Positions 466-39,195 of a DNA stretch of 47,501 nt are shown here, piece by piece. Under the pieces are notes generated by a model. That model did no database searches and had not been told where the DNA came from. It was given only the letters and a program-made list of their open reading frames with translations. The stretch's first letter is position 1; the number at the start of each line of letters is the position of its first letter. The DNA comes from Candidatus Omnitrophota bacterium. Its GTDB lineage: Bacteria; Omnitrophota; Gorgyraeia; Zapsychrales; Fredricksoniimonadaceae. Location: contig JABDCU010000005.1 of the NCBI GenBank assembly GCA_013287965.1, forward strand, positions 33,848-81,348, written 5' to 3'. The position numbers were made by a program, and so were the translations under genes.

Positions 466-1497
466 CTATTTTAGTACCCTGTTTTTAACAAGCTGAAGTT
501 TCGGTCTCAAATACCACCACAATTGTCTTCTTTCAGTCCAAAGGAGCATTGGCAATTTACGCCAAAAATAAAAACTACTTCTCGCATCCTTCAATATCTT
601 CAAGCAAGCCTTGAAACGAAAAAAATATAAATTAACCACGAACCAACTGGCTGCGGTCCCATAGATAGTTTCCCAAAGTCTTCGCATAACATATCGGGCG
701 ATGCCGTTCCCAAAAACCTGCCAGCGTTCTTCGATCTGCCAATCCTTGATCAACTCAACAGTTTCCCGCAACCCTATCCAACCTGTCAGCGTTGTAAATT
801 TATTTGTTTGGTCCTTATGGCGCCTCCAATAAAGGATAGCCGCTTCATCAAAACCAGTAGTACCAAAAGGGACTACCCCATACAATTGGCTGAATTCCAT
901 GGACTCATGATATCCCCCTGCCTTGACTAAATCCTCTCTCTTAAAAGTAAAAACAGTCCCTGGCGCGCTGAACATGACTTCATTCCCATATTCACCTTTA
1001 CAGAGCGTATTGAGCACCAATAGATGGCCCGGCATATAACGAGGGCGATAATTAACAGTCCGGGAGCCTTTATCAAGCATCTGTCCTTGCGCATCTATGT
1101 GTTTTATTATACCCGCGGCACTGGTACAATCCGGATTATCTCCAAAAAGCTTCACCATCTTTTCTACATAATCATTGGCCATCAGGTCATCATCAGATTG
1201 ATAAAATATATACTCCCCGGTTGCTTCTTTTAACGCGGCATTACAACAAACCCTAAGCATGATCTGATCACCATTATCCCAGAATTGATTCTCTTTAAAA
1301 TGGACGATTTTGACGCGATTATCCGAAGCTTTTACATTGATCAAATAATCTATGATTTCCGATGTTGCTCCGTTGTTAACGACAATGATCTCCAGATCCT
1401 TATATGTTTGGCTCCTCATTGCTTCTAAAGACTGCCGGGTATAATCAAGACGATTATAGGCAAGGGTTATGATGGTAAACAACGGTGGATTATTCAA
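466..1497 (-). CDS. Glycosyltransferase family 2
   Basis: FTIITLAYNRLDYTRQSLEAM...LEIIVVNNGA, YQSDDDL (GT-A fold, DxD-like motif); TTG start abutting the upstream stop. Confidence 0.9.
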   Translation of the reverse strand: MNNPPLFTIITLAYNRLDYTRQSLEAMRSQTYKDLEIIVVNNGATSEIIDYLINVKASDNRVKIVHFKENQFWDNGDQIMLRVCCNAALKEATGEYIFYQSDDDLMANDYVEKMVKLFGDNPDCTSAAGIIKHIDAQGQMLDKGSRTVNYRPRYMPGHLLVLNTLCKGEYGNEVMFSAPGTVFTFKREDLVKAGGYHESMEFSQLYGVVPFGTTGFDEAAILYWRRHKDQTNKFTTLTGWIGLRETVELIKDWQIEERWQVFGNGIARYVMRRLWETIYGTAASWFVVNLYFFRFKACLKILKDARSSFYFWRKLPMLLWTERRQLWWYLRPKLQLVKNRVLK

Positions 1498-2493
1498 TTA
1501 ACACCTGCTATCACAATCACTCACATAAATGATCTTGCTTCCCTGTGGTTCAAAACTAAAAGGGGTCTCTTTCAAGTCAGCGAGCGCTTTACGCACGCTG
1601 TTTTGTTTTTCTTCTTCGCAATAAAAAAGTAAAAAACCCCCGCCCCCGGCCCCTAAGAGTTTTCCGCCCACCGCTCCGGCCTTCAATGCCTTTTCGTAAT
1701 AACCATCGATCTCAACACTTGTGATCCCGCTAGCCAACTTTTTCTTAAGCCCCCATCCTTGATGCAGGGTCTCCCCAAACCCGTGGAGATCATCAGCCTG
1801 GAGTTTTTTTAAGAGCTGGCGTGAAAGGTCCACCATTTCGTCAAGATATCCCATGTTCTTGGGCGTATTTTGCCCCTGCTCTTTAAGGATTGAGGATGAT
1901 ATTCGCGTGGTGCCCGTATAAAACAAAAGGAGTTTCTTGTTCAGGTCTTTCTTTGTTTTCGACGGAAAAATAACAGGGTCCACAAACACACTCTCATCCG
2001 CGTTAAACTGGATATGCTGCAAGCCGCCGTACGCCGCGATGTACTGGTCCTGTTTCCCGATGGGGTTTTTCAGAATATTCAATTCGATCTCACAAGCTTC
2101 GCGCGCCAAACGGTCTGCTGATACGTGCCGTCCCTGATAGGCATAGAGCGCGTTAAGGACACCCACTGCCAGACTGCTTGATGATCCAAGCCCGATCCCC
2201 GCAGACCCCAAGGGGATGTCTCCCATATAAACTATTTCAATCCCTTTGGTAATGCCCACTAGCTTCAGGGCTTCACGGATAATGTTATGCTCAAGCTCTT
2301 CAATGGACTTGACCATTTCCGTTTTAGAATAACTTACGCGTATCAGATCATCAAATTTCTGGTTAACGGTGATATAAATGTATTTATCGATCGCCGTGGA
2401 CACAACAGCCCCCTGGCGGTGCCTGTAATAGTCCGGGATGTCTGATCCTCCCCCTGAAAAACTCATGCGAAGTGGTGTCCTTGAAATGATCAT
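1498..2493 (-). CDS. hddA: GHMP-family sugar kinase, D-glycero-D-manno-heptose 7-phosphate kinase (HddA)-like
   Basis: MIISRTPLRMSFSGGGSDIPDYY N-terminus and GSAGIGLGSSSSLAVGVLNAL GHMP ATP-binding motif. Confidence 0.8.
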   Translation of the reverse strand: MIISRTPLRMSFSGGGSDIPDYYRHRQGAVVSTAIDKYIYITVNQKFDDLIRVSYSKTEMVKSIEELEHNIIREALKLVGITKGIEIVYMGDIPLGSAGIGLGSSSSLAVGVLNALYAYQGRHVSADRLAREACEIELNILKNPIGKQDQYIAAYGGLQHIQFNADESVFVDPVIFPSKTKKDLNKKLLLFYTGTTRISSSILKEQGQNTPKNMGYLDEMVDLSRQLLKKLQADDLHGFGETLHQGWGLKKKLASGITSVEIDGYYEKALKAGAVGGKLLGAGGGGFLLFYCEEEKQNSVRKALADLKETPFSFEPQGSKIIYVSDCDSRC

Positions 2494-2558: not shown

Positions 2559-3455
2559 TCATTTTACATGTATTTCCGTTGTCTTAACATACCGACGCAA
2601 ACCTTCCTCAATATCAATTTTAGGGGACCAGCCAAGGGCATGGGTGGTCTTGGACATATCCGCCCAAAAATCTGCCGTCGGCTGGACTTGCGCCTCACGC
2701 AATCGCTTGGAGCAAAAAAGTTCGCGGCCCATGGCTCTCTCCAGATGTTCACAGACCTTCCACACCGGCACAGATCGGCCTGACCCAAGATTATAGATCC
2801 CCGTCGGCACATCCTTATGCACCATCAGCATAAGGGCTTCGGCAATATCATCCACATGGATAAAATCATTCGCATTGTGCGGTGTCTTGACCAACGGATG
2901 CTCATTTTTCTTTAAGGCATCTGCCATCATGGGTATAAGTGACCCTGCGCGCTGCCCAGGCCCATAGACATAGAATAAACGAAACCAGATGAACGAAACA
3001 TTATACTTTGATGCCAGCAATCTGCCAAGATTATAAAGAGCGTGTTTGGCCCAAACAAAATATGAATCCAATGTAATAGCTTCATTTTCATGGCAAGGGC
3101 CAAAGGTTTTGCCATATTCAAGGCAGCTTCCCGCCATCACGATCTTCCTGCACCCGCACTCTTCCACCAGGCAGCGCAAAAGCGCCGAACCATGCTGCAA
3201 ATTCTTTAGGGACATATTATAACCAAAATCAGGGATCCCTTCCCAGGCCAAATGCACGCAAACATCCGGTCGGATGACCTTTAACCTGTCAAGCAAACCG
3301 GCAGGCTCATTAAGGTCTGCTTCAATCACGGAAACATGGGCCGGTAATCCTGTCAGCGGCTTACGGCAAACCACAAAAACTTCATCGGCTGCACTGGTTT
3401 GAAGTAATAACCTTTGCCCGATAAATCCTGTTGCTCCGGTAATAAGGATTTTCAC
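2559..3455 (-). CDS. NAD-dependent epimerase/dehydratase (extended SDR)
   Basis: MKILITGATGFIGQRLL Rossmann motif; FYVYGPGQR; NDFIHVDDIAEA. Confidence 0.88.
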   Translation of the reverse strand: MKILITGATGFIGQRLLLQTSAADEVFVVCRKPLTGLPAHVSVIEADLNEPAGLLDRLKVIRPDVCVHLAWEGIPDFGYNMSLKNLQHGSALLRCLVEECGCRKIVMAGSCLEYGKTFGPCHENEAITLDSYFVWAKHALYNLGRLLASKYNVSFIWFRLFYVYGPGQRAGSLIPMMADALKKNEHPLVKTPHNANDFIHVDDIAEALMLMVHKDVPTGIYNLGSGRSVPVWKVCEHLERAMGRELFCSKRLREAQVQPTADFWADMSKTTHALGWSPKIDIEEGLRRYVKTTEIHVK

Positions 3456-3578
3456 AAAGCACCTTCAATTGATTAGACTTTACGATGATAACCTACAGTA
3501 ATCAAACATCTTAAGATCATTATTAATCAACTCAAGTACACATTCGTTTAAGAACTTATTGGATATAATAGGATGGAT

Positions 3579-3622
3579 TGTTCAATAATTGAACATTGTA
3601 ATATTATCCTTAAAAATGTCAA
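3579..3622 (-). promoter_or_regulatory. Predicted sigma70-type promoter (-35 TTGACA, 16 bp, -10 TACAAT) overlapped by 17-nt inverted repeat TGTTCA-ATTAT-TGAACA
   Basis: Minus strand: TTGACA 3622-3617, TACAAT 3600-3595, palindrome 3595-3579; upstream of SDR start 3455. Confidence 0.65.
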
Positions 3623-5666: not shown

Positions 5667-6014
5667 TTATTTCGTCTGCGCCCGTAAAGCATTTAAAGAC
5701 TTTGTGATCGCCGCCTGCTGTGCTGATAGTTTAGAGTCATTGGCTATCTGATTGGCAATCACTACTTGTAATGCCTGTTGGTCAAGGGCCTGTTGCTGCT
5801 TTGTTAGGGCTGTCTGGGCATCAATAGCGGCCTGTGCCGTTGCTTCTGCTTTTAACGTGGCTGCTGATGGGGTCGTATAAATTACTTTTGAATTTTTAGC
5901 ATCCGGGCAAGTCACATCCCCTGCCGCATTTGTCGTACAATTTGATTGGGCGAATGCTCCCGTACTCAAAACCAACAAACACACAGAAACAAATCCGATA
6001 ATATATTTTTTCAT
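5667..6014 (-). CDS. Small secreted Ala/Gln-rich protein, function unknown
   Basis: Signal peptide MKKYIIGFVSVCLLVLSTGAFAQ; helical AQ-rich C-terminal half. Confidence 0.7.
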   Translation of the reverse strand: MKKYIIGFVSVCLLVLSTGAFAQSNCTTNAAGDVTCPDAKNSKVIYTTPSAATLKAEATAQAAIDAQTALTKQQQALDQQALQVVIANQIANDSKLSAQQAAITKSLNALRAQTK

Positions 6015-6022
6015 AAATTTTC

Positions 6023-6727
6023 CTAATTCAGTTGGTATAAAGCCGCTGTTCCTGTCACTGTTCCCGCTGACGTTGAAAAAGTTATACTCGACAAGGAAGA
6101 AGCTCCCGTATATGTGCCCATAACATAATAAATTTCTTGGCCTCCATCATTGTATTGGGTGTTATAATTGACTAAAACAGTATCATTGTTTCCTGGCACA
6201 GTTTGGAATAGAATTTCTGCTTGCCCAAAAGTGCTTGAATTGGAAGAATTGGAAAACCAGAAAGAAGTTGTTGGGCCTGAAGCTTCACCGGCAGAAGCCC
6301 CACCTGAATTATAAAAAACTTTTGATTGATAATTTGTTCCTGAATCGCTGTTAAATATAAATGTACCGACAGCAGTTGACGTATTTTGTTCCCAAGTAAA
6401 AACTAATTTGTATCTATTCCCGGGGCTTAATCCACTGATCGTAAATGAAGAAGCCGCTGACGGAGTAGCCGTTGCGACAAGGGACAATGAATTTACATAC
6501 CCAAGGGCACGGACTGTTCCTTGGACGTCCAGCGCCTGGCCTGGATTCACAGAGCCGATGCCTACATTGCCCGCTACTTCTACTGTGCTAAATGGCGCGA
6601 CAGTGCTGATACCAACATACCCTGCAAAATGATTGACATCTGCATTGGCTTGGTGGGAAATAATTAAGGAGAATAATAAAAAAGCAATTAAACGGATGTG
6701 GAAGTCTTTGATGAATATAAATTTCAT
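6023..6727 (-). CDS. Secreted protein with tail-fibre/adhesin-like N-terminal repeat
   Basis: Signal peptide; VGISTVAPFSTVEVAGNVGIGSVNPGQALDVQGTVRALGYVNS; Ser/Thr/Gly-rich beta C-terminus; SD GAGAGAGG 5' of ATG. Confidence 0.75.
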   Translation of the reverse strand: MKFIFIKDFHIRLIAFLLFSLIISHQANADVNHFAGYVGISTVAPFSTVEVAGNVGIGSVNPGQALDVQGTVRALGYVNSLSLVATATPSAASSFTISGLSPGNRYKLVFTWEQNTSTAVGTFIFNSDSGTNYQSKVFYNSGGASAGEASGPTTSFWFSNSSNSSTFGQAEILFQTVPGNNDTVLVNYNTQYNDGGQEIYYVMGTYTGASSLSSITFSTSAGTVTGTAALYQLN

Positions 6728-6753
6728 ATATTCCTCTCTCTAAGATACTAAAT

Positions 6754-6790
6754 ATTCTAAGCACTGTCATAAAGAATGTCAAGAATTTAC
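6754..6790 (-). promoter_or_regulatory. Predicted promoter for secreted-protein pair
   Basis: Minus strand: TTGACA 6782-6777, 17-bp spacer, TAGAAT 6759-6754, then SD and ATG at 6727. Confidence 0.55.
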
Positions 6791-6946
6791 CCGGGCTTAC
6801 CTGGATACAATTAGTAATTTACCTAAAGTAAAAATCTTGACGCAGACAGGCGATAAATGTTCTTTTTATCCTGGCTGGCCACCCCTTCTTGATAACACAC
6901 TTGGACAACAGGGATCCCTCCTAACGCTTGCGCTGATAGTTTGGGG

Positions 6947-7150
6947 TCAGATCAGTGAAACCTGTAAAGGCTTCTGAGCAAGTTTACTGACATTCATAAT
7001 GGAAAAACCAAGTATGTGCCCCTTATCATCAACTTTTTCCATCACAGCATCATTCTTTGTTTGACGAAAAAAACCTGTTTTTTTCTCAAAAGAAACTTCC
7101 AAATAATCCCCCGCTTTGTCAAACCAAAGGTTAATTATTTTCTTAGCCAT
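6947..7150 (-). CDS. DUF2283-like small protein, possible antitoxin-type partner
   Basis: INLWFDKAGDYLEVSFEK...GHILGFSIMNVSKL pattern; overlaps upstream small ORF by 16 bp. Confidence 0.7.
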   Translation of the reverse strand: MAKKIINLWFDKAGDYLEVSFEKKTGFFRQTKNDAVMEKVDDKGHILGFSIMNVSKLAQKPLQVSLI

Positions 7151-7446
7151 ATGATTTCCCCTTTTTTAATCGAATCTGTTAAATAAGCTGTAAGGACAAA
7201 CGCCTCGTGTTCCACTGTTTTGACTACAACGCACAAATGTTTATTGCCTACTTTTGTTCCAATATAAAATCTATAATACAAATGAGCATCTTTATCGCTC
7301 AATGACTGGATAACTTGCTGAGGGTTAAGCAGAGTTTCCTGAATATACTTTACCATCCCCCTCATTTCAGGATGTTCGAGAATATGTTTTCGACGTTCCT
7401 CCGTTAAACGTACACTTTGACCGCAATAATCACGAAAGGTCTTCAT
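7135..7446 (-). CDS. Small protein resembling PBECR/DUF4258-type toxin-like partners of DUF2283 genes
   Basis: LTEERRKHILEHPEMRG...VIQSLSDKDAHLYYRFYIGTKVGNKHLCVVVKTVEHEAFVLTAYLTDSIKKGEIIW; coupled to DUF2283-like ORF. Confidence 0.55.
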   Translation of the reverse strand: MKTFRDYCGQSVRLTEERRKHILEHPEMRGMVKYIQETLLNPQQVIQSLSDKDAHLYYRFYIGTKVGNKHLCVVVKTVEHEAFVLTAYLTDSIKKGEIIWLRK

Positions 7447-38576: not shown

Positions 38577-39146
38577 TTACCCCTTTAGCGACAACTCATT
38601 GTTTTCCTGGCTGGCCAGCTCTTTGATCAAATCCACACAACGGCCTTGCGGAGGCTGCGGGATGTCCATCTGTTCCCTGCAGATAAAAACGATCCCTTCA
38701 GGATGGTCAGGGACCTTTTCCACCCGGCTAAATTTCACCCCCACCCATTGCGGCTGGCTCAAAGACATTTCCACCAACTCCACCAGATCTGAATTGCCCA
38801 AAATAAAAAAGACCCGCTCTCCCTGCTCATACAAGCGCCGGATAACGATATTTAATTGGTTACGGATCAACCCTATGGAGCGTATGGTTTTAAGTGTGTA
38901 ATGGACGGATTTGTGATATTTTTCATTGAAGCCCTTAGAGGTAAGGATATACTCGGTTTTTTTCTTATTGAGCTGACGGATACGGATATATCCCTTGGTA
39001 ACAAGGCGGCGGACCAGGAGATTTGTCATGCCCAGGGAAATATCCAGTTGTTTAGACAGATCTCTTTGATTGGCACCGAGTTGGGCGCCAATGATATTGA
39101 TCAATTCGAATTCGCGTTCGTTTAGGGAGTCTTCAGGTGTATTCAT
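38577..39146 (-). CDS. EPS-associated MarR-family (winged HTH) transcriptional regulator with C-terminal extension
   Basis: [67 protein letters not shown] (TIGR04176-like). Start set to ATG 39146 rather than TTG 39158. Confidence 0.85.
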
Positions 39147-39149
39147 ATG

Positions 39150-39195
39150 AATGTTCAATTTGTGAACATTATATAAAAGATGAGAATAATGTCAA
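39150..39195 (-). promoter_or_regulatory. Predicted promoter (TTGACA-16-TATAAT) overlapped by inverted repeat TGTTCA-CAAAT-TGAACA, candidate MarR operator
   Basis: Minus strand: TTGACA 39195-39190, TATAAT 39173-39168, palindrome core 39168-39152 (8-bp arms AATGTTCA/TGAACATT 39150-39170). Confidence 0.72.

Follow-up and report, generated by a model that had tools for sequence, protein, structure and literature searches.

Closest described systems

In the classical MarR-family autorepressors (MarR, MexR, MepR, and HpaR), a palindromic operator overlaps the promoter of the regulator gene itself. The regulator described here is encoded in a window of 47,501 nt (the whole stretch of DNA that was analyzed) from a Candidatus Omnitrophota genome. 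It resembles these proteins in its modeled winged-helix fold and in the palindromic putative operator over its own promoter, and by analogy it may work like a classical MarR autorepressor. It differs from them in heading its own operon, with no divergent target gene, and in that the fold matches are limited to its N-terminal part. FabT (NF050133; PDB 6jbx) is the top sequence match in PDB; its NCBIfam model matches the DNA-binding part weakly, at 23.5 bits against a cut-off of 200, and the FabT pathway is unrelated.

With the TIGR04176 (MarR_EPS) family, the window protein shares a homologous winged-helix region, a polysaccharide-cluster setting, and the motif GTTCA-N5-TGAAC at the gene's own promoter. 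It differs from the family in its score (46 bits; cut-off, 88) and in having an extra C-terminal domain, whereas members in other orders are mostly open frames of about 110 to 150 codons. We found no published operator for the MarR_EPS family in open-licence PMC papers, in agreement with the first-pass annotation, which knew of no described operator; the sole literature trace found in the same collection was a passing mention of "EPS-associated MarR" (PMC10599003).

The regulator gene and its product

The regulator gene (38577..39143, minus strand) starts with ATG and encodes a protein of 188 to 189 amino acids; an alternative start, TTG at 39158, lies within the operator. Its product scores above the gathering thresholds of the MarR superfamily models PF01047 (25.5 versus 24.6) and PF13412 (HTH_24; 29.5 versus 21.9). 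The TIGR04176 model is matched by all 15 aligned homologues (best E = 4e-15), and sugar-nucleotide and glycosyltransferase genes flank the regulator on both sides, corresponding to the exopolysaccharide gene cluster setting of that family. Judged by sequence, the regulator appears to be a longer relative of TIGR04176, a nonmember by the curated cut-off, that has the same operator. Homologues were matched in 43 of 56 related genomes, and the named matches are mostly from Candidatus Omnitrophota.

The predicted structure (mean pLDDT of 84) consists of a MarR-type winged helix-turn-helix, a long helix of 38 residues, and a C-terminal alpha/beta domain, and with this model Foldseek finds MarR proteins, whose alignments span the N-terminal part. 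The C-terminal domain is conserved (GxRxFYxLGxSDLAxLIE) and uncovered by the Foldseek matches to PDB; it is possibly the effector domain.

Two promoter-operator copies in the window

We observe two exact copies of TTGACA-N16-TAYAAT overlapping TGTTCA-N5-TGAACA in the window, both on the minus strand, at 3579-3622 and 39152-39195, each with a 16-nt spacer and a T that belongs both to the -10 hexamer and to the operator. The composite pattern was absent from all 100 dinucleotide shuffles of the window, and the exact palindrome TGTTCA-N5-TGAACA has just these two copies genome-wide (genome of 1.52 Mb, about 70% complete). The description in the first-pass annotation of one promoter/operator architecture occurring twice, about 35.5 kb apart, is thus exact in coordinates, strand, spacer, and shared T, as is its claim that the window holds only two intergenic occurrences. 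The -35 extension that it described as shared matches exactly in both window copies, but relatives do not keep the TT that follows TTGACA.

At the regulator promoter, the -35 hexamer TTGACA (39190..39195) and the -10 hexamer TATAAT (39168..39173) are followed by the operator TGTTCA-CAAAT-TGAACA (39152..39168, all minus strand), which lies 8 nt upstream of the regulator ATG, a position conserved in relatives. The second promoter consists of the -35 hexamer TTGACA (3617..3622) and the -10 hexamer TACAAT (3595..3600), with 11 of 12 consensus matches between them, and the last T of the -10 overlaps the operator TGTTCA-ATTAT-TGAACA (3579..3595, all minus strand), inside which the predicted transcription start falls. 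The first gene after this promoter is an SDR/NAD-epimerase gene with a GTG start (2559..3455), followed by an hddA-like GHMP kinase gene (1498..2493; NF049969, 136 bits against a cut-off of 600) and a GT2 glycosyltransferase gene (466..1497), all on the minus strand.

Operator conservation across relatives and phyla

Searching for GTTCA-N5-TGAAC with at most one mismatch, we found the operator for 56 of 60 regulator homologues in the 300 nt ahead of the gene, compared with 20 of 2604 control windows (0.8%). Across these 60 loci both half-sites are nearly invariant and the letters of the N5 spacer are free, and the -10/operator offset in relatives ranges from 0 to 8 nt, with 0 and 1 being the most frequent. 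An operator-promoter is present in 38 of the 56 related genomes and in none of the 13 genomes without a regulator match (Fisher, P = 5e-9). Regulator and operator presence are also strongly associated phylum-wide (386 genomes), and 101 of 138 operator-promoters are followed within 300 nt by a MarR_EPS-family gene, at a median distance of 33 nt. Twelve of the 138 occur in the ten genomes without a listed regulator, several of them at contig ends or without a -10; the G006 C1 match and several in regulator-free genomes, all without a -10, look like chance and were set aside. In a second phylum, that of a "Deltaproteobacteria" genome, GTTCA-N5-TGAAC lies within 200 nt upstream of 16 of 24 TIGR04176-type genes.

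The site is thus located at the regulator's own promoter and conserved there in homologues, by the locus count (56/60) as well as the phylum count (101/138), and we conclude from this conservation that TGTTCA-N5-TGAACA is the predicted autoregulatory operator of the family, kept before its own gene in at least two bacterial phyla. The same association with homologues supports the earlier proposal that the palindrome is the operator of the encoded MarR-type regulator, on two promoters of one polysaccharide cluster. Many copies at unrelated loci were named as grounds for abandoning that proposal, and it withstood this check, the sites being located at the regulator or, where examined, mostly at the heads of polysaccharide genes.

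In many of the short MarR_EPS regulators, the start ATG falls within the operator, in the spacer in Omnitrophota and in the second half-site in the other phylum (loci L161, L163, L164, L169, L170, L172, L173, L176-L180, L186, L187, and L190), and in Omnitrophota short-regulator loci it follows the -10 by about 8 to 10 nt. A start codon inside the operator and so close to the -10 suggests that the predicted autoregulated mRNA is leaderless or near-leaderless.

A decayed regulator copy at the second site

The leader between the second operator and the start of the SDR gene is 123 nt long and contains the remnant of a second regulator copy (3472..3576, minus strand; blastn and gapped alignment). 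By blastn, a 70-nt match of the site to the start of the regulator gene in a congeneric genome (G002) has 84.3% identity and runs more than 40 nt beyond the operator; identity to other regulators is lower (71% for G001 and 67.5% over 80 nt for the window's own). With the operator removed, the best match in 1.09 Mb of loci, the window itself apart, is again the G002 regulator head (E = 1.5e-5, in a set of loci that already contains regulator genes). In register, the second site and G002 share 16/16 positions in the operator, 37/47 in the next 47 nt, and 17/33 in the -35 to -10 region. A colinear gapped alignment to later parts of the regulator gene scores 92, compared with a maximum of 72 in 1000 shuffles, and its second part alone (beyond about 58 nt) narrowly surpasses the shuffle maximum (46.0 versus 45.05; 1000 shuffles).

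The remnant is short and shows disabling changes, with the start ATG changed to ATA, internal deletions, and stops. As similarity runs past the operator in register together with such changes, the second site has the character of a pseudogene and, on this alignment evidence, is what survives, at the 5' end, of an additional regulator gene that was lost. It had been taken for an internal promoter; the promoter-operator is indeed intact, but it is not simply internal, being instead the head of a decayed gene. Because the remnant is nearer to G002, we rejected its origin by plain duplication of the regulator in the window; for the same reason, the protein now encoded is not necessarily the remnant's former partner. 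Despite this closeness to G002, the half-sites at the remnant and at the present regulator are identical. The idea that the SDR-hddA block is itself akin to G002 was likewise dropped, a close SDR relative being found in G007 only and hddA relatives in G010, G004, G054, and G036.

Extra operators in other genomes

Two further genomes carry an extra operator on a regulator remnant. In G028, an intact operator sits on a regulator copy that carries stop codons and a frameshift (E = 1e-18), and it survives where both this copy and the promoter hexamers look degraded. In G011, a near-consensus promoter and an operator with one outer mismatch precede a 12-codon regulator stump, MPKEVLNKLELC, of which MPKEVLNKLEL is in register with the regulator (E = 0.002), followed by a SIS (gmhA-like) gene and sugar genes. 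Intact tandem units, with two regulators 11 to 12 kb apart that each have an operator-promoter, are present in G224 (L160, C5) and G361 (L161, C46), and they likely show what the arrangement in the window looked like before it decayed.

Not every extra operator sits on a regulator remnant, since none was detected at those of G042, G054, G021, G212, and G367. In two of these genomes, G042 and G054, sugar genes are headed by the operator and the regulator lies 2 to 3 kb downstream of it; the G367 operator stands before a neuB-like gene. Such operators can thus front polysaccharide genes directly. At three loci (L139, L119, and L165), we observe the operator-promoter heading polysaccharide genes (wbpG-hisH-hisF-like, two SDR genes, and neuB-like) rather than a regulator gene.

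Proposed history and alternatives

We are fairly confident in a reading in which the palindrome serves the adjacent MarR-type regulator as its operator, the second site derives from a decayed G002-like unit, and the surviving regulator probably acts on both promoters. A regulator dimer would bind the dyad over the transcription start and block its own promoter, and the regulator gene, which heads the polysaccharide gene cluster, would behave together with its promoter-operator as a cluster-head module. A second, G002-like regulator-headed unit would once have been joined downstream of the present one; its redundant regulator gene would have decayed through loss of the start codon and deletions, and its promoter and perfect operator would have persisted to front SDR-hddA-GT2. 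From a distance of 35.5 kb, the surviving regulator would then probably control both promoters in trans, and its control of the second is likely. The operator-regulator association, the remnant, and the tandem arrangements elsewhere are read directly from the sequences; from them we infer binding, repression, an effector, and a second promoter that is still active and regulated.

The history could have ended otherwise, with the second site left as the dead scar of a regulator copy that decayed recently, and with transcripts of SDR-hddA-GT2 coming from upstream read-through. The leader of the SDR gene is a pseudogene, the upstream aldo-keto reductase gene is co-directional with no terminator-like site found between, and the G028 operator has outlasted its degraded-looking regulator copy and hexamers. 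We nevertheless consider a dead scar unlikely, given that the window hexamers keep 11 of 12 consensus positions, that the operator is fully identical to G002 where the adjoining promoter region and remnant are not, and that in G011, too, the promoter on the regulator stump is close to consensus and lies directly before a gene with a Shine-Dalgarno-like sequence. The perfection of the second operator may reflect recency and not selection.

An independent origin of the second operator as an internal promoter, by convergence or as a promoter-only copy, with the leader similarity arising by chance, has precedents of a kind in the operator-promoters placed directly before polysaccharide genes in G042, G054, and G367. 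It is already disfavored, and in our view very improbable, because the 37/47 identities follow the operator in exact register and because the extra sites of G011 and G028 carry remnants. Least credible is that the palindrome belongs to an unrelated regulator or forms a transcribed hairpin and neighbors MarR_EPS genes incidentally: in two phyla it accompanies a single gene family, at a constant place in the promoter, it is absent in regulator-free relatives, and its free N5 between near-invariant half-sites is as expected of a dimer binding site.

Returning to the favored reading of a decayed regulator unit, this recognizable fossil illustrates how, in a simple way, a repressor that regulates itself may acquire a second promoter as a target. 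We give roughly equal credence for and against the broader view that regulons grow by decay, in which clusters are joined, the redundant regulator erodes, and its operator is kept as a target, so that a one-site autoregulator would become a multi-site regulon, with a single operator code shared across phyla and the start codon often inside it. Such a DNA-binding code for a polysaccharide-cluster regulator family would be usable for regulon prediction in uncultured phyla.

The cluster in the window is interrupted at 5667-7446 by genes unlike polysaccharide genes, among which are a secreted repeat protein without family matches (6023-6727) and a PBECR2-domain nuclease-like ORF (7135-7446).
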